Below, in pieces: positions 3,446-19,440 of a stretch of 20,490 bases of DNA. Origin of the DNA: a virus; IMG/VR virus record IMGVR_UViG_3300046002_000788, positions 1-20,490 of that record; one strand, given 5' to 3'. The translations under genes were made by a program, and so were the position numbers. The notes under the pieces are model-generated. The model searched no databases and was not told where the DNA came from. It was given only the letters and a program-made list of their open reading frames with translations. Position 1 is the stretch's first letter. Every line of letters begins with the position of its first letter.

Positions 3446-4039
3446 ATGACCGAACACAAAAACATCTACATGGCTTTGTGCGCGGCACAGGCTGGCATGG
3501 GCAAAGTTGTGAAAGGCGCAACCAACCCCGCGTTTAAATCCAAGTATGCGGATCTGGCCGATGTGGTTTCTGTCGCCATCCCTGCGCTGACCGAGCAAGG
3601 CATCGCAATGTTCCATATGATGGTGCGGGATGAACAGGGTGCTGTGATGCGCACGATGCTGGTTCATGGCGCCAGCGAAACCAGCGTCTCGTGTGACGTG
3701 CCGCTCATCGTAAATAAAAACGATATGCAGGGAATGAAAAGCGCCACGACCTATGCAAAGCGGATCGGCTTAGAGAGCCTCACAGGCATCGCGCCAGAAG
3801 ACGAAGATGGCAACGCCGCTGCGAAAGCCGCGCCCAAGGTCGAGCCGAGCAAGCTGATCAGCAAAGATCAATATGTGGACATGAGCGACCTGATGTTTGA
3901 CACAAACACAGATAAGGCAAAGTTCTGCGCTTACTGGAAAGTTAAGCAGCTTGAAGACATGACCGAAAAGCAAGCGATTGACGCAATCGCCATGCTTACA
4001 AAAAAAGCAGCGTTGGGGGTGGCAAATGGAAATGCATGA
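3446..4039 (+). CDS. erf: ERF-family single-strand annealing recombinase
   Basis: A 197-residue ERF superfamily protein, which anneals complementary single strands in phage recombination and genome circularisation (P22 Erf is the type member). Visible family features are NPAFKSKYADLADV near residues 27-40, IPALTEQGIA, a strand-rich middle and the signature SATTYAKRIGLESLTGI around 99-115, followed by an acidic/Ala-rich linker and a helical C-terminal region. The ATG at 3446 begins the conserved fold and follows the membrane-peptide gene by one base. It overlaps the start of the YqaJ nuclease gene, its natural exonuclease partner, and SSB is encoded on the opposite arm. Confidence 0.93.
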   Translation: MTEHKNIYMALCAAQAGMGKVVKGATNPAFKSKYADLADVVSVAIPALTEQGIAMFHMMVRDEQGAVMRTMLVHGASETSVSCDVPLIVNKNDMQGMKSATTYAKRIGLESLTGIAPEDEDGNAAAKAAPKVEPSKLISKDQYVDMSDLMFDTNTDKAKFCAYWKVKQLEDMTEKQAIDAIAMLTKKAALGVANGNA

Positions 4040-4649
4040 GCAACGCACAGAAGCATGGCACAGTGCTAGACTTGGCAAAGTTACTGCATCCCGCACCGCC
4101 GATGTGATGGCAAAAACCAAGTCTGGCTATGCGGCCAGCCGGGCTAACTACATGGCCCAGCTTATTACCGAGCGGCTTACGCAGACCTCTGTGAAAGGCT
4201 TCACCAGCGCCGCCATGCAGCATGGCACAGATACCGAACCGCAAGCCCGCATGGCCTATGAACTGATGACAGGTGAAACAGTGGTTGAGACAGGCTTTGT
4301 TCCGCACCCGACCATCGCGGGCTTCGGTGCATCACCTGATGGGTTGGTAGGATCGGATGGGCTGATCGAAATCAAATGCCCAAACTCTGCCACCCACATT
4401 GAGACGCTGCTGGATGGCAAGGTTCCATCTCAATACATGATCCAGATGCAGGTGCAGATGATGTGCTGCGGGCGGGAATGGTGCGATTTCGTCAGCTTTG
4501 ATCCCCGTATGCCCGGAGATATGAATTTCTGGATGCAGCGGGTCCACGCAGATCACGCCACGCAGACAGACATCAAGGCCGAGGTGATTAAGTTCTTGGG
4601 CGATCTGGACATGAAACTTCAGCAGCTGCGGGAGAAGTTCAATGCTTGA
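4026..4649 (+). CDS. YqaJ/lambda-Exo-like viral recombination nuclease
   Basis: A 207-residue YqaJ-domain protein of the lambda exonuclease superfamily, which resects double-stranded ends to make single strands for the annealase. Catalytic pieces are visible: Glu71 in HGTDTEPQAR, Asp105 in GASPDGL, and Glu115-x-Lys117 in LIEIKCP, then the QMQVQMMCCG helix that usually follows. WHSARLGKVTASRTADVM at the N-terminus is also typical. Two start ATGs (4026 and 4032) are close together; the first is taken, after a GGGGGTGG stretch. The gene overlaps the end of erf by 14 bases and the next gene by 8, so the three are expressed together. Confidence 0.94.
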   Translation: MEMHEQRTEAWHSARLGKVTASRTADVMAKTKSGYAASRANYMAQLITERLTQTSVKGFTSAAMQHGTDTEPQARMAYELMTGETVVETGFVPHPTIAGFGASPDGLVGSDGLIEIKCPNSATHIETLLDGKVPSQYMIQMQVQMMCCGREWCDFVSFDPRMPGDMNFWMQRVHADHATQTDIKAEVIKFLGDLDMKLQQLREKFNA

Positions 4650-6353: not shown

Positions 6354-7475
6354 TTACCCTATCGCCGCTGTGTGCCTCATAACCTCACCGCGTTCACAAT
6401 GCACTGTTATGCACTTCATTGTGCTGCGCCCCGTATAGCCAAAGCCAGCAGCGGCTGCGTCCCGCGTTGTGATTGCCCGATGGCTTTCCCAGAACATCCC
6501 ACCAATATCTTTGGCGCTGTCTTGGTGTATGTGGCCCGTGTCCATATAGCGCCAGTGTGTCCTGCCCCAGATCGACGCATGAACATCAGCCACTTGCATC
6601 ACCAATCGTTCAGGCTTGGTCTTGTCGCCGTGATGCGCCGTCAGCATATTGCGGCCGAATTCCATGACCCACATTTTAGCTGGGTTCCAATGCACAGTAA
6701 CGCGCTCGTCTTCTTCGTAGCGCATGATCAATGCGATTGCTAACATAGGCGTAAAGTCAGGGTCGTGATTGCCAGCCAACACAACAATTTCAATATGCTT
6801 GTGCTTTGCCTTAGCCGCCTCAATCAACGCAACGTGCGATCTGACTGCAGCCATCGCCGCCTGCGCGAATCTGCCGTCAACGTCGAGGATGTGCTTAGAG
6901 GTGGGGGTTTGCGCGGATCCATCATTTTGGTGCAACGTATCACCCAAATTTAGTATGACCGCCTGGTCGGTATAGGGTGCGGCATTGATCAGCGTGGCTG
7001 ATGCTTCGGCCAAGCGCTGTGCGGCGATTGCAATGTTATACTCCGCACCCGTCTCATCCTCCCATGCCCTCATCCCAAAGTGGATGTCAGCGACGATATA
7101 ACGCGGCAATAGGTCATGCGAAACATTGTCCGGCACAAGCGCTGGCAATGGTTCTGGCACAGACCCAAGCGCTTCGCGGAATAGATCAGCCCATGATGTT
7201 AGATCGTCTTGCGCTGCATCAGCTTTCCAGAAAACCGAATCCCACGATCCCGTTTCTTTGTTCTGGACCCGCCGCCAGCCGTGCCTGCCGCTTTCCATAG
7301 ACAGGCCAGTTGTTTCTAAAGCAGCCTTGATTCCATCGTCAGCGTTTATCCATGCTTCTGCGACAGTATAGGCGCGGCGAACTGTCTTTGGGTCAAGGTT
7401 CAATGCCCTAGCCGCTGCCCGCTTGCCGCCAAGTTTCTTTACCATGTCGTAGATTTCGCGCTGCCGGGGTGTCAT
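6354..7475 (-). CDS. HTH-metallophosphoesterase fusion
   Basis: A 373-residue protein. Residues 1-40 (TPRQREIYDMVKKLGGKRAA, then LDPKTVRRAY) form a helix-turn-helix. The rest is a calcineurin-like metallophosphoesterase with all usual metal motifs in order: ADIHFG (Asp130, His132), LNLGDTLHQND (Asp179), LAGNHDP (235-238), TAHHGD and TGHIHQD (314-317). Such proteins occur in many phages, with no settled substrate; phosphodiester cleavage of nucleic acid or nucleotides is likely from the fold. The ATG at 7475 overlaps the preceding stop (ATGA); an in-frame GTG lies three codons earlier. It is the last gene of the late operon, after the lysis genes, an odd place for a DNA-binding enzyme. Confidence 0.87.
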   Translation of the reverse strand: MTPRQREIYDMVKKLGGKRAAARALNLDPKTVRRAYTVAEAWINADDGIKAALETTGLSMESGRHGWRRVQNKETGSWDSVFWKADAAQDDLTSWADLFREALGSVPEPLPALVPDNVSHDLLPRYIVADIHFGMRAWEDETGAEYNIAIAAQRLAEASATLINAAPYTDQAVILNLGDTLHQNDGSAQTPTSKHILDVDGRFAQAAMAAVRSHVALIEAAKAKHKHIEIVVLAGNHDPDFTPMLAIALIMRYEEDERVTVHWNPAKMWVMEFGRNMLTAHHGDKTKPERLVMQVADVHASIWGRTHWRYMDTGHIHQDSAKDIGGMFWESHRAITTRDAAAAGFGYTGRSTMKCITVHCERGEVMRHTAAIG

Positions 7476-7690
7476 TGCCCACACCCAGCGTCGATCTGTT
7501 GGATCAGTAACGCGCCCGTGACCAGCGAAAGCGGCCCACCATCCGCCGCCAGTGACGCCGCATGGTTCGTCCTGCTTTGGATCGTGCCATCGCAGATTGC
7601 GTTAGTGCTTGGCGCGGTCGCGCAAGAAATCAGCAGCAGCAGCGGCATCAGTAGGACCAACATTGTCGATCCGTTTGGAAGTTTCGGCAT
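7472..7690 (-). CDS. Small lipoprotein, candidate outer spanin (Rz1-like)
   Basis: A 72-residue protein with an N-terminal signal MPKLPNGSTMLVLLMPLLLL and a lipobox LLISC, so it should be lipidated at Cys and sit in the outer membrane. The mature part is about 50 residues and keeps two further cysteines (ICDG and the terminal AGCGQ). GAGGAG is ten bases before the ATG at 7690; the frame is open further upstream. The gene starts 89 bases inside the preceding small membrane-protein gene in another frame. A lipoprotein nested in a gene for an N-terminally anchored protein, next to endolysin and holin, is the Rz/Rz1 layout. It is not proline-rich like classic Rz1, so the call is by arrangement. 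Confidence 0.7.
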   Translation of the reverse strand: MPKLPNGSTMLVLLMPLLLLISCATAPSTNAICDGTIQSRTNHAASLAADGGPLSLVTGALLIQQIDAGCGQ

Positions 7691-7802
7691 AGGCTTGCAA
7701 CTCCTCAATCTTGGCTGCGTCTCTGCCAGCCTTCTTGCCGCCAAACCAAGCCGCTAGAAGAACCAGCACAGGCTTCAGGAGAGAGGCAAGGAAGGCGCTC
7801 AT
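7602..7802 (-). CDS. Short membrane-anchored helical protein, candidate inner spanin
   Basis: A 66-residue protein beginning MSAFLASLLKPVLVLLAAWF, a single N-terminal membrane segment, followed by a charged helix (KKAGRDAAKIEELQAYAETS) and a basic C-terminus (FLRDRAKH). This type is common in lysis cassettes of alphaproteobacterial phages. The ATG at 7802 overlaps the stop of the holin-like gene (ATGA). With the nested lipoprotein it fits an inner/outer spanin pair, but at about 45 periplasmic residues it is short for a classic Rz (usually over 100). Joint action across the periplasm is therefore inferred, not shown. Confidence 0.72.
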   Translation of the reverse strand: MSAFLASLLKPVLVLLAAWFGGKKAGRDAAKIEELQAYAETSKRIDNVGPTDAAAAADFLRDRAKH

Positions 7803-7966
7803 GCTTTGCGCTTGGCGATCACTGACCAAACCGCAACGATGATCGTAGCAGCAGCCCCACCGACTGTGGTGGCCGTTTCGCTGTCAATCAGACCCTTGCC
7901 GACCAGATAGCCGCCGAGAGCCGATGCAAGTGCGCGGGCGATGCCGCCGATTTCAGTTGCCGTCAT
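7799..7966 (-). CDS. Holin candidate, two membrane segments
   Basis: A 55-residue gene between the endolysin and the spanin-like pair, joined to both by ATGA overlaps. The product MTATEIGGIARALASALGGY continues into a Gly/Leu stretch, a short polar turn (KGLIDSETATT) and a second hydrophobic segment (GGAAATIIVAVWSVI), ending in the basic tail AKRKA. Two weakly hydrophobic segments, a short turn and a positive C-terminus match small class II holins, which open the inner membrane to release endolysin. Size and position support the call; there is no specific family motif that I can name. Confidence 0.75.
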   Translation of the reverse strand: MTATEIGGIARALASALGGYLVGKGLIDSETATTVGGAAATIIVAVWSVIAKRKA

Positions 7967-8514: not shown

Positions 8515-8756
8515 TTACGCATCTCCTTTTGGATTTCATCCAACTTTTTTAGCACTTCAGAAAACCCCGTTTTGATCTCTTTCAGTTCTCTGTCATGGCC
8601 TTCTTTGGTCAGATTGTATTCCGACTTCATGACCGCAATTTCTGTCTCATGGTTCTGGGTCATTTTGTAATGCATCCAAACGAACGCAACAATTGGGATC
8701 ACCGCAAATTGCAGTAGGAGCTTCGCTAGTTCCATGATGTCCATCTCTTGCTGCAT
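8511..8756 (-). CDS. Membrane-anchored coiled-coil protein before endolysin
   Basis: An 81-residue protein with an N-terminal membrane segment (LAKLLLQFAVIPIVAFVWMH) followed by a heptad-like charged helix (LKEIKTGFSEVLKKLDEIQK). The ATG at 8756 overlaps the previous stop and has GGAAGGG upstream; later in-frame ATGs at 8744 and 8735 are possible. Its place just before the endolysin suggests a lysis-related role (holin regulator, antiholin, or a second inner-spanin-like protein). The topology is the reverse of the XhlA family, in which the coiled coil precedes the membrane segment. Function not established. Confidence 0.72.
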   Translation of the reverse strand: MQQEMDIMELAKLLLQFAVIPIVAFVWMHYKMTQNHETEIAVMKSEYNLTKEGHDRELKEIKTGFSEVLKKLDEIQKEMRK

Positions 8757-9043
8757 CAATAACGCCCTTCCCAAACACGCAAGTGAGCATTATCGCTGTT
8801 GTTCATCTCACGGGCTACAACGTCACGCATCGCCGCCGTGTCATTGGCATTGACGCCCCACTTTTTGGCCCACTCAGCCCACATTTTCATTGGGATCAGC
8901 CCCACTAACTTGCTTTCGCCCAAGTGGCCTGCCCCTGCGCTTTTTAACGCCTTCGCCTTCTCCAGCACCGGGTTGAAGTCGTGCGTCTGCTGCACGATTA
9001 TCTTCCCCTCGTCCGTGAACATCTTTTCCGCTATTTTCGTCAT
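8756..9043 (-). CDS. Conserved hypothetical phage protein
   Basis: A 95-residue protein. The N-terminal half is helical and basic (MTKIAEKMFTDEGKIIVQQT). The C-terminal half, LIPMKMWAEWAKKWGV followed by VAREMNNSDNAHLRVWEGRY, is a Trp-rich pattern that I recall from uncharacterised virion-region proteins of other phages, without a known role. GAGGA lies six bases before the ATG at 9043, supporting this start over an in-frame TTG at 9055. Its first 170 bases overlap the preceding gene in another frame. A virion or assembly role is likely from its position between the decoration gene and the lysis genes. Confidence 0.72.
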   Translation of the reverse strand: MTKIAEKMFTDEGKIIVQQTHDFNPVLEKAKALKSAGAGHLGESKLVGLIPMKMWAEWAKKWGVNANDTAAMRDVVAREMNNSDNAHLRVWEGRY

Positions 9044-9182
9044 GGGCGTCCTCAAACGTCAGATTTGGATAGGCTAGGCGCATCGTCTCAGCGACACTAA
9101 CTGGCATCCGCAATATTTGCCCGCGTCGATAGCGAACACCACCACGGAATATCCCTTCACACGTTACAATATATTCTTTCAT
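8874..9182 (-). CDS. Hypothetical protein after decoration gene
   Basis: A 102-residue reading frame starting five bases after the second hairpin module. The first 46 residues (MKEYIVTCEGIFRGGVRYRR, then PVSVAETMRLAYPNLTFEDA) look like a real small beta-rich domain as found in head-joining regions of phages. The rest overlaps the 95-residue gene and is biased to Gly, Arg, Ala and Asp (KKRRGRPLGRKQ near the end), as expected for a frame constrained by another gene; a basic RRGRP-type tail does occur in such proteins. No clear ribosome site precedes the ATG, so expression may depend on read-through. Confidence concerns the N-terminal domain more than the tail. Confidence 0.55.
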   Translation of the reverse strand: MKEYIVTCEGIFRGGVRYRRGQILRMPVSVAETMRLAYPNLTFEDAHDENSGKDVHGRGEDNRAADARLQPGAGEGEGVKKRRGRPLGRKQVSGADPNENVG

Positions 9183-9186
9183 TTGT

Positions 9187-9213
9187 AAGAAGGGGCGAGC
9201 CTAAACCCGCCCC
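9187..9213 (-). terminator. Hairpin terminator B, after decoration gene
   Basis: On the minus strand GGGGCGGG pairs with CTCGCCCC (9206-9213 with 9192-9199, one G-U pair, 6-nt loop) and is followed by TTCTTA. It lies 8 bases downstream of the decoration gene stop. It is nearly the same sequence as terminator A at 9691-9718. The short U-run suggests partial termination, allowing read-through to the genes beyond. Confidence 0.7.
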
Positions 9214-9221
9214 CCTCTTTA

Positions 9222-9665
9222 TTACGAAACGGTAGCAGAGAACGGGGTAGCTTCCGTTCCAGATGCTTCCGACATGACAATGACAGCCCAAGTATCAGCT
9301 GCGATGTCATCAAGAACAACGCGCCAGCCCTTTAGACCGCCCTTGGTCGAGCCATCAAGCGTGATAGTGTCGGACGCATCAGCAGTGTAGAAGCACGAAG
9401 CGCCTGCACTGTCGTTGCCCAAGTAAGCCACACCCATCATAATGTCAGTTGCATCAGCAACCTTGATGATTTGGCTACCAGAAGCATCGACAGAGCCGAT
9501 GAACTCGTAGCGATTGCCAGAGCCAGTGGCTTCCGGCAGCGTAGCCGTAATGCCAGCAGCGCGGCTCATAATGACGCGCTGGCCAACGTGTGCTTCATCG
9601 GTGATCGTAACAGTCGCAGCGGTGACAGTGACGATGCCGTAGTTCTCAAAATAGTTTGACGGCAT
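9222..9665 (-). CDS. Probable head decoration/stabilisation protein
   Basis: A 147-residue protein directly after the major capsid gene. It is rich in short beta strands, Ala, Thr and Gly (VTVTAATVTITDEAHVGQRV, ATLPEATGSGN, TITLDGSTKGGLKGW) and has no helix-rich or membrane part, in keeping with small beta-barrel or beta-tadpole capsid decoration proteins. The annotation rests on position and composition; no named family motif is seen, and a minor virion protein is an alternative. AAGGGAAA lies upstream of the ATG. It is bracketed by two near-identical hairpins, and its last three codons plus stop (Thr-Val-Ser) repeat those of the capsid gene. Confidence 0.68.
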   Translation of the reverse strand: MPSNYFENYGIVTVTAATVTITDEAHVGQRVIMSRAAGITATLPEATGSGNRYEFIGSVDASGSQIIKVADATDIMMGVAYLGNDSAGASCFYTADASDTITLDGSTKGGLKGWRVVLDDIAADTWAVIVMSEASGTEATPFSATVS

Positions 9666-9690
9666 GAGATTTCCCTTCAGCCAGATGTTG

Positions 9691-9718
9691 AAGAAAGGGG
9701 CGAGCCAAAGCCCGCCCC
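9691..9718 (-). terminator. Rho-independent terminator A, after major capsid gene
   Basis: On the minus strand GGGGCGGGC pairs with GCTCGCCCC (9710-9718 with 9697-9705; nine pairs, one G-U) around a 4-nt loop TTTG, followed by TTTCTT. This is a canonical intrinsic terminator 8 bases after the capsid stop. The next gene starts only 26 bases further on, with no room for a promoter, so some transcription must read through. The hairpin may also protect the 3' end of the abundant capsid mRNA. Confidence 0.82.
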
Positions 9719-9725
9719 ATCACGA

Positions 9726-10682
9726 TCACGAAACGGTGTTGTCGAAGATACCGCCATTGGCCTTTTCGTTGCGGGAAACCAAGGTCAGTTCGGTGAGAAC
9801 CTGACGCTTTTCGTTGTCGCCCGTTTTGGCAAGCTCTTCGTTGCGAGTTGCGCGCAGAACGCCAACAGCCCACATATCATCCTGCATGATGAACACATCA
9901 CGACCACGGTTTTCGCGGGTCGGTTTGAACTCAACAGTCCCCCACGGCGTAACGTAGACGGACATATGCTTGATGACCTTTTCATCTTCGGCCACAATGT
10001 TCGAACGCTGGTTGTTGTTACCAGTGAAGCCCAAAGCAAGGTTCATCTGGAAAGCCGACAGATAAACCGAATCAGGCTTGCCGCCGGAAACCCAGATCGC
10101 CTGCATCACGCTGTCGAACTTGGTTTGCGAGAATGCAGTGGGAGTGCCGTCATCCGTGCGGGCGTTCGTGCCGTCACCAGTGGGATCAGCACCGCTGGAA
10201 CCCGATTGGAAGTTGGTGTTGGTGTTCAACCATGCCGGAACGCCAGCCAATTTACGAGCGGCAGAAGACGAGCCAGCAACACGCGCCTGATTGGCGAACA
10301 TTGCCTTTTCGATGTCCAGCTTTTGCTCCTTGGCAATCTTCAGAACCTGATAAGCCATTTCGCGGGCGCGACCAGCTTTGTTCAGACCTTGATCAGTGCC
10401 GGGGATAACCACCGCATTTTTGAAGATTTGCGTATAATTTCCCAAGCGGCTGGTGACGCCACGGCTTTCAGCGACAGTATCATCGCCTTCAATGTGTGCG
10501 TTTTCAGCCGAAGAGCGCAGAGCATCGGTCTGCCATTCGTGGAAAGTATTCGCTGCTTTAGCCTTAGCGCAAGCAGTGTAGAACGGAGTTTCTTCCGGCG
10601 AGATGTCATAGATCACATCGGAAAGGTCTTCCCGGATGCCTTTTACGTCATACGAGTCGAGAGTGTTTGTTGGCTGTGCCAT
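9726..10682 (-). CDS. Major capsid protein (SU10/DUF5309 type)
   Basis: A 318-residue HK97-fold coat protein of the SU10 major capsid/DUF5309 family. The N-terminal motif SYDVKGIREDLSDVIYDISP followed by ETPFYTAC is diagnostic. Further family parts are RLGNYTQIFKNAVVIPGT, the long helix REMAYQVLKIAKEQKLDIEK, a Gly/Thr-rich loop and a C-terminal strand region (DVFIMQDDMWAVGVLR). It builds the icosahedral shell around the scaffold protein encoded just upstream. AAGGAC precedes the ATG by nine bases. The gene ends in a strong terminator. No N-terminal propeptide with a visible cleavage site is seen. Confidence 0.92.
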   Translation of the reverse strand: MAQPTNTLDSYDVKGIREDLSDVIYDISPEETPFYTACAKAKAANTFHEWQTDALRSSAENAHIEGDDTVAESRGVTSRLGNYTQIFKNAVVIPGTDQGLNKAGRAREMAYQVLKIAKEQKLDIEKAMFANQARVAGSSSAARKLAGVPAWLNTNTNFQSGSSGADPTGDGTNARTDDGTPTAFSQTKFDSVMQAIWVSGGKPDSVYLSAFQMNLALGFTGNNNQRSNIVAEDEKVIKHMSVYVTPWGTVEFKPTRENRGRDVFIMQDDMWAVGVLRATRNEELAKTGDNEKRQVLTELTLVSRNEKANGGIFDNTVS

Positions 10683-18540: not shown

Positions 18541-19440
18541 TTATCTCCGTGACGATTTGGTTGGGGTAGATTTAGCGCTGGTTGCATTGCTGCTGGTAAA
18601 CTTTGCCACAGATGCTTTCGTGGGCGCAGGCGCAGGGGCTGGCTTGGGTGCTGGCGCGGCTACGGGTTTTGCGGGGGGAATACCAACTGTGTTTGATAGA
18701 CCGGAAAGCAAACCACCAGAGAAGGTTGCACCGCTCTGCCCCGGACCGCCGCCGTCAAATCTATCTCGAATGTTGCGGTATCCTGCTGATGCCGGAGGAA
18801 TGCCAATCGTATTAGCCAAGCCTGAAAGCGGACCGCCAGAGAAGGTTGTTCCGCTTTGGCCAGGACCGCCGCCATCATACATATCCCGAATGCTGGTAAA
18901 GCCGCCAGTTGCAGGGGTTCCGCTTGCACCTCCACCGCCGCCACCTCCACCGCCGCCACCCCCACCGCCGGACGACACTGGCGCTGGCGAGTTGGGCATT
19001 GATGTTGTCGATCCACCTTTACCGCCGCCACCGCCACCGCTCACTTGAACAGGCGCAGCACCAGTTCGCGGGTTGACGAACATACTAGTGATTGCATTAT
19101 ATTGACCCGGAGCGCGGACTTGCAATTCGCGCAAAGACTGATCGTATAGGTTGCCGGAGCTATAGCCCTGCACACCGCCAGCAAACGTCTGTGGTGCAGG
19201 CATACCCATTGACAGGTCATTGGTCCCAAGACCAAAAGCCCCTGCTGCTGTGTTGATGCCCTGACCCGCCGCCATCTGCATTGGTGTCATAGCCGCAACA
19301 TCGGGGCCGTAATATGGGACATTTCCAATCGATGCCACATCTTCAGCGCGTCGAATGCCGCTTTGTGCCGCCTGTTCAAGCCAAGCAGGAATTTTAACAG
19401 TTGATGTTGTCGATCCGCCTTTACCGCCGCCACCGCTCAT
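18541..19440 (-). CDS. Gly-rich virion protein with internal repeats
   Basis: A 299-residue protein. It opens with MSGGGGKGGSTTSTVKIPAW and a helical region (LEQAAQSGIRRAEDVASIGN). The opening motif returns at residues 134-147, followed by 14 consecutive glycines (158-171). Next come two copies of a 34-residue unit with 40-residue period (IRDMYDGGGPGQSGTTFSGG from 184 and IRDRFDGGGPGQSGATFSGG from 224), then a Pro/Ala/Lys tail. The ATG at 19440 overlaps the previous stop and has AAGGGA upstream; a longer frame is open to 19557 but overlaps the GNAT-like gene. The flexible, repetitive make-up suggests a virion surface or linker protein. No named domain is seen. Confidence 0.75.
   Translation of the reverse strand: MSGGGGKGGSTTSTVKIPAWLEQAAQSGIRRAEDVASIGNVPYYGPDVAAMTPMQMAAGQGINTAAGAFGLGTNDLSMGMPAPQTFAGGVQGYSSGNLYDQSLRELQVRAPGQYNAITSMFVNPRTGAAPVQVSGGGGGGKGGSTTSMPNSPAPVSSGGGGGGGGGGGGGGASGTPATGGFTSIRDMYDGGGPGQSGTTFSGGPLSGLANTIGIPPASAGYRNIRDRFDGGGPGQSGATFSGGLLSGLSNTVGIPPAKPVAAPAPKPAPAPAPTKASVAKFTSSNATSAKSTPTKSSRR
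18670..18891 (-). repeat. Tandem 120-bp in-frame repeat
   Basis: Two copies with a period of exactly 120 bases (compare 18721 onward with 18841 onward) encode the repeated 34-residue unit ending GIPPA in the Gly-rich protein. The copies keep DGGGPGQSG-TFSGG unchanged and vary at scattered positions, so they are older than the 27-bp repeat at 16943. Confidence 0.9.
19001..19440 (-). repeat. Duplicated 5' end of the Gly-rich gene
   Basis: The first 38 bases of the gene (19403-19440) recur at 19001-19044 with one base change near the middle and a six-base insertion, encoding SGGGGKGGSTTS and SGGGGGGKGGSTTS. The internal copy replaces the start codon by GTG, giving the Val at residue 133. Between them lies the 130-residue N-terminal domain. 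Confidence 0.85.

Follow-up and report, generated by a model that had tools for sequence, protein, structure and literature searches.

In the late operon of the phage fragment analyzed here, two hairpins formed at gene ends at the RNA level, designated J1 and J2, delimit the capsid block on its 3' side and, judging from sequence comparison, are most probably leaky intrinsic terminators that also leave stable 3' ends, so that mRNA would fall stepwise along the operon. The window, meaning the whole stretch of DNA under analysis, is a 20,490-base IMG/VR fragment from a tailed phage whose portal and capsid genes are of the SU10 type. Its minus-strand genes span 20.4 kb to 6.4 kb and include structural genes, portal, scaffold, major capsid protein (MCP), the gene designated dec, genes X and Y, a small membrane protein, lysozyme, and holin. 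The features of the junction are as follows, in the order of transcription.

9726–10682, minus strand: MCP gene, 318 aa, SU10_MCP family (Pfam SU10_MCP, E 1.5e-80; PHROG 1328, major head protein), ending ...DNTVS-TGA.
9697–9718, minus strand: J1 hairpin, GGGGCGGGC-TTTG-GCTCGCCCC, 7 nt past the MCP stop (fold, terminator scan, score +21.2).
9691–9696, minus strand: J1 U-rich tail TTTCTT (read from the sequence; terminator scan and score).
9672–9678, minus strand: Shine-Dalgarno (SD) sequence of dec, GAAGGGA, 3' of J1 and 6 nt from the dec ATG (anti-SD duplex -7.1 to -8.1 kcal/mol).
9222–9665, minus strand: dec, 147 aa, beta-rich, likely a capsid spike/decoration protein (predicted fold match), ending ...FSATVS-TAA.
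9214–9217, minus strand: SD-like GAGG (inside AAAGAGG), directly 5' of J2, the proposed split ribosome site of X (spacing to the ATG 31 nt linear, 9 nt folded).
9192–9213, minus strand: J2 hairpin core, GGGGCGGGT-TTAG-GCTCGCCCC, beginning 8 nt past the dec stop (fold, score +1.8).
9187–9191, minus strand: J2 U-rich tail TTCTT, abutting the ACAA-ATG of X (read from the sequence).
8874–9182, minus strand: gene X, 102 aa, starting 9 nt past the J2 hairpin (homologues with aligned start; dN/dS).
8756–9043, minus strand: gene Y, PHROG 3982 (a family of unknown function; PHROG match), with a 170-nt overlap with X in another frame.

A preliminary description of this DNA had pointed to a 47-nt module repeated at the ends of MCP and dec, and both copies were located and lettered as given there, each being 47 nt long, with both genes ending in Thr-Val-Ser-stop. 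On the minus strand, the J1 module (9737–9691) reads ACCGTTTCGTGATCGTGATGGGGCGGGCTTTGGCTCGCCCCTTTCTT, and the J2 module (9233–9187) reads ACCGTTTCGTAATAAAGAGGGGGGCGGGTTTAGGCTCGCCCCTTCTT; the hairpin portions of the two constitute a 31-nt direct repeat with 84% identity. A pattern built from both module copies matched the window twice, against 0.00 matches expected from shuffles, a figure that measures rarity rather than independence, since the pattern was derived from the two copies themselves. Folding of both sites, the check suggested in that description, confirmed stable structures of -20.2 kcal/mol (z -4.4) for a 32-nt stretch and -21.2 kcal/mol (z -3.6) for a 38-nt stretch.

Both elements form GC-rich stem-loops in the sense RNA, as is characteristic of intrinsic terminators. 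With a d'Aubenton-Carafa-type terminator score, J1 (+21.2) and J2 (+1.8) were the only positive scores among 884 tiles on both strands, the next best reaching -8.8. The U runs of the two tails, TTTCTT and TTCTT, are both interrupted, the J2 score is marginal, and a consensus terminator scan was passed by J1 only. No sigma-70-type promoters were found between the genes on the minus strand by a scan restricted to that promoter class. A search of Rfam returned no known RNA family, with two sub-threshold matches (E 0.02 and 0.43) lying far under the gathering scores.

Both hairpins thus occupy the ends of consecutive genes, pair, are conserved on the sense strand, and carry the best terminator scores in the contig. 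On this reading, RNA polymerase would stop partly at J1 and J2, downstream expression would depend on read-through, and mRNA would drop in steps from the capsid gene to the spike gene and then to the X-Y-lysis genes, with J1 acting as the stronger signal and J2, owing to its weaker U-tract, being the leakier one. The two-step attenuation put forward in the preliminary description is accordingly plausible, as the best-supported reading for J1 and a weaker one for J2. Such an arrangement suggests how a compact late operon could produce abundant capsid but little lysis protein with no additional promoters.

The attenuation reading is an ordinary and likely one, since counterparts are known in LUZ24, UFV-P2, T7, and LUZ100. 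In the deposited LUZ24 record, the major head gene is immediately followed by an annotated Rho-independent terminator, and UFV-P2 has a terminator at the same place, from which two nested late transcripts were inferred (PMC3890496). The capsid genes of these phages (LUZ24 gp62 and UFV-P2 ORF69) are homologous to the MCP gene of the window (about 36-37% identity) and lie in the same place and on the same strand, and a GC hairpin follows the stop by a few nucleotides between the capsid gene and the downstream late genes. As with the LUZ24-type element, the hairpin of the window lies directly downstream of the homologous MCP gene and is conserved in relatives. The LUZ24-like phages differ in possessing one hairpin instead of two, an SD of their own downstream of the hairpin, and another stem sequence. 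The T7 terminator, located between genes 10 and 11, works inefficiently in its native setting and favors the upstream genes (PMC9157156), and in LUZ100, RNA mapping indicated an apparently strong terminator right after MCP (PMC10134795). Both share with the window a terminator directly behind the capsid gene, and capsid mRNA can exceed downstream mRNA in them (PMC9157156, PMC10134795); they are, however, unrelated phages that have an RNA polymerase of their own; LUZ100 has a local promoter for MCP, and T7 a longer U-tract. Leaky terminators after the capsid gene are therefore already known from other phages, whereas here the element is doubled and may possibly have a second role in starting X.

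For comparison, 80 viral contigs were collected by MCP search and 45 by dec search. In all 89 readable relatives, with or without dec, the final capsid-block gene is followed by a structured stretch, defined as a minimum free energy at or below -12 within 45 nt. The corresponding figure for shuffles of the same 45-mers is 30%, an imperfect control in that the composition is set by the hairpin itself; the sole exception, L030, is a contig ending inside the next gene. The presence of the hairpin at every readable end of the capsid block ties it to the block end and not to one gene. Stem sequences differ greatly between lineages, yet pairing in the sense strand persists: among 14 distinct hairpins of equal length, chosen by hand, 97.7% of cells were paired with 9 double-sided changes, against 48-68% in slid controls. 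G-U pairs occur at two stem positions (12/14 and 7/14), where the other strand would have A-C mismatches, and, as such wobble is possible only in sense RNA, the hairpin is a feature of the sense transcript. A hairpin acting at the DNA level, as a recombination site, was also considered and is disfavored on the same ground.

The U-tract is less constant than the stem. At the corresponding position, marine relatives carry textbook terminators whose U runs are U7-U8, and U-tracts are also present in the window and its clade. In L029, L036, J1 of L117, and Octadecabacter DB2, by contrast, the hairpin is kept without a U-tract and terminator scores fall to -26 to -41, so that termination dependent on the U-tract cannot be the whole conserved function. 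Conservation of this kind favors another explanation, in which the hairpins would be decay barriers instead of terminators, blocking 3'-5' exonucleases after downstream cleavage and thereby allowing capsid mRNA to outlive the rest. UUCG- and GNRA-type tetraloops in many hairpin copies point the same way, as does a precedent from the puf operon of Rhodobacter, where an intercistronic hairpin acts on mRNA decay (PMC11354728); Rhodobacter belongs to the alphaproteobacteria, which are the likely hosts given the Octadecabacter and Rhizobium relatives. The puf hairpin likewise lies within an operon, behind a gene needed in most copies, but it acts on decay and has no homology to J1 or J2. As U-tracts are retained in the marine relatives as well as in the window and its clade, a function purely in decay is considered rather unlikely, and leaky termination is retained as the preferred reading. 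The roughly 90 relatives form a natural series, across which the hairpin, the U-tract, and the ribosome site change independently of one another.

Four layouts of the junction were distinguished: MCP-hairpin-dec-hairpin-X, as in the window (A); MCP-hairpin-X or another gene, without dec (B); MCP-ribosome site-dec-hairpin, with an MCP-dec spacer of 11-15 nt (C); and, in two contigs, MCP and dec separated by an insert that carries an HNH endonuclease (D). Among contigs with both MCP and dec, 32 have a long spacer holding J1 (gaps of 55-67 nt), 18 lack it, and 2 have the insert. The J1 hairpin is thus optional, the 18 relatives carrying the 11-15-nt spacer with a ribosome site in its stead. Of the cultured relatives, Octadecabacter DB virus 2 carries one hairpin at its junction, and in Rhizobium phage RHph_Y25 a hairpin lies behind dec. 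On the MCP tree, layouts A, B, and C require about ten changes.

The product of dec is likely a capsid spike or decoration protein, judging from structure prediction. No family match was obtained in PHROG or Pfam, and a profile search against PDB sequences gave no match. Its AlphaFold model is beta-rich (pLDDT 76), and the best fold match among solved structures is the capsid spike of Pseudomonas phage Pa223 (E 8e-4, TM 0.44), which agrees, weakly at these values, with the label "decoration" given earlier.

The preliminary description also held that coding end, stop, spacing, and hairpin had been duplicated as a unit that moves with genes, through duplication or recombination at gene ends. The coding part of this claim fails. 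When the last 9 coding nucleotides of MCP and dec were compared in the 37 relatives with both genes, likeness was no greater within genomes (4.70/9) than between them (4.52/9); the two ends are identical in 3 of the 37, namely the window and two close kin, and the match is already gone in the very close relatives L003 and L004 (MCP protein identity 99 and 96%). In addition, ACCGTTTCG terminates MCP genes that lack the J1 hairpin (L029, L033), DNTVS or DNTTS is the MCP C-terminus through much of the family, including where the J1 hairpin is absent, and the dec C-terminus is mostly ATVS or AAVS. Since both tails are conserved and match no better than chance given these family-typical C-termini, the shared coding end ACCGTTTCG is a coincidence.

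The hairpins themselves present a different picture. The window clade and L112 each carry J1 and J2 cores that are nearly identical (permutation p 0.015, 6 lineages); in the window clade this likeness probably goes back to a shared or copied hairpin, and a duplication of the hairpin alone is possible. The window clade and L112 are the only two of the six lineages with like J1/J2 pairs, the other four carrying unlike hairpins, so that similarity between the modules is lacking in distant lineages and present in near ones. Coding end, stop, and hairpin were not found alike as one unit in relatives. Ongoing gene conversion between J1 and J2 was rejected, as within the clade J1 is nearly fixed while J2 varies, which excludes continued copying. 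The duplicated module as a whole is consequently improbable, with its coding-end component largely refuted, even though two further observations speak in its favor: the recombination genes ERF and YqaJ are present in the window, and two contigs (L028, L037) nested among dec-bearing contigs, being sister to 13 of them in the MCP tree, lack dec. In these two, the MCP end at TCGTAA is joined to a J2-type hairpin followed by X, leaving one hairpin; a search of the remainder of each record found no dec, and both records may be fragments.

Recombination at the MCP gene end, as part of the same claim, is by comparison supported, dec being cleanly missing in L028 and L037 and HNH or tRNA genes occurring at the same junction elsewhere. 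Since MCP and dec often end in TCG-stop with like hairpins, short-homology recombination would be a reasonable route to the absence of dec. The capsid-end junction is, from the contigs compared, an insertion hot spot, phiM5 (L124, 2521-2595) carrying a tRNA-Met gene there and RHph_I1_23 (L122, 1959-2798) an HNH gene behind dec. In L040 and L046, a free-standing gene for an HNH endonuclease (HNH_3), preceded by an inverted repeat, lies exactly between MCP and dec.

Gene X, which follows J2, is a real gene, as its start is conserved among aligned homologues and codons 1-42 are under purifying selection (dN/dS 0.07-0.23). The X/Y overlap (window 8874-9043, minus strand) extends over 170 nt in different frames with both genes conserved, and X has a basic KKRRGRP-type stretch close to its end. 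In Octadecabacter DB virus 2 (L121, about 4007-4273), the closest cultured relative, X is unannotated.

In the window, no SD was found between the J2 stem and the X ATG, while dec, lysozyme, and most window genes have one. J2 may therefore be chiefly translational, the ribosome binding an SD 5' of the hairpin and the 22 nt of the hairpin being folded out, which would place the SD about 9 nt from the X ATG; this reading is compatible with weak termination and is regarded as a serious prospect, somewhat short of even. When the window junction was folded with GAGG held open, the 9-bp stem remained intact and the spacing decreased from 31 to 9 nt. In all 22 distinct junctions with a 7-11-nt gap between hairpin and X, no SD occurs in the gap (anti-SD -2.2 to +4.3) and an SD-like tract is found at the 5' base of the hairpin (-5.3 to -11.9), whereas in four lineages with a gap of at least 15 nt the SD lies 3' of the hairpin and the 5' base is mostly weaker (-1.5 to -6.2), the L105 junction being read in this comparison with an alternative ATG. 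At J1, which is nearly a copy of J2 within this genome, the SD (for dec) lies on the 3' side and the 5' base is weak (-4.3). The 5' purines are retained in L010 and L026, though the post-stem flank no longer forms the same A-U extension, and in both DB2 and L038 a normal SD precedes the aligned start of X.

Several points temper this interpretation. With the stem intact, the window SD amounts to only 4 nt; a GC-rich 5' arm inherently resembles an SD; and the lineages with the split arrangement are related, their effective number being about six. The predicted arrangement, with no SD near the AUG, an SD 5' of the hairpin, and a folded spacing in the working range, is found in the window and is weaker in L049, for which the model gave no clean arrangement, and in some other relatives. 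As SD and stem compete for the same Gs in several relatives, the case for a split site is suggestive and not proven. J2 is probably part of the translation start region of X on these models, with less certainty than attaches to the terminator reading.

A precedent is provided by T4 genes 25 and 38, in which a hairpin between SD and AUG cuts the spacing from 22 to 5 and from 27 to 11 nt (PMC3014915), comparable to the predicted reduction from 31 to 9 nt for X. In contrast to the T4 sites, the hairpin of the predicted X site is also terminator-like and directly follows a stop codon. It is conceivable, with low probability, that in this phage family one hairpin combines both functions, terminating the capsid transcript and also spacing a split ribosome site. 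X could then be started only on read-through transcripts, which would make X and the lysis genes dependent on read-through, and over evolution the SD would have shifted from one side of the hairpin to the other. If the arrangement at J2 is true, a terminator would double as a translation-start element that gene finders and terminator finders would both misread, X being unannotated in the closest cultured relative.

Two further observations were made elsewhere in the window. Past holin, at 7472-7829 on the minus strand, two overlapping small ORFs resemble an embedded spanin pair, one of them beginning in the manner of a lipoprotein (LISCATAP). Additionally, a direct repeat of 106 nt with 75% identity lies at 18670-18895 in a glycine-rich structural gene.
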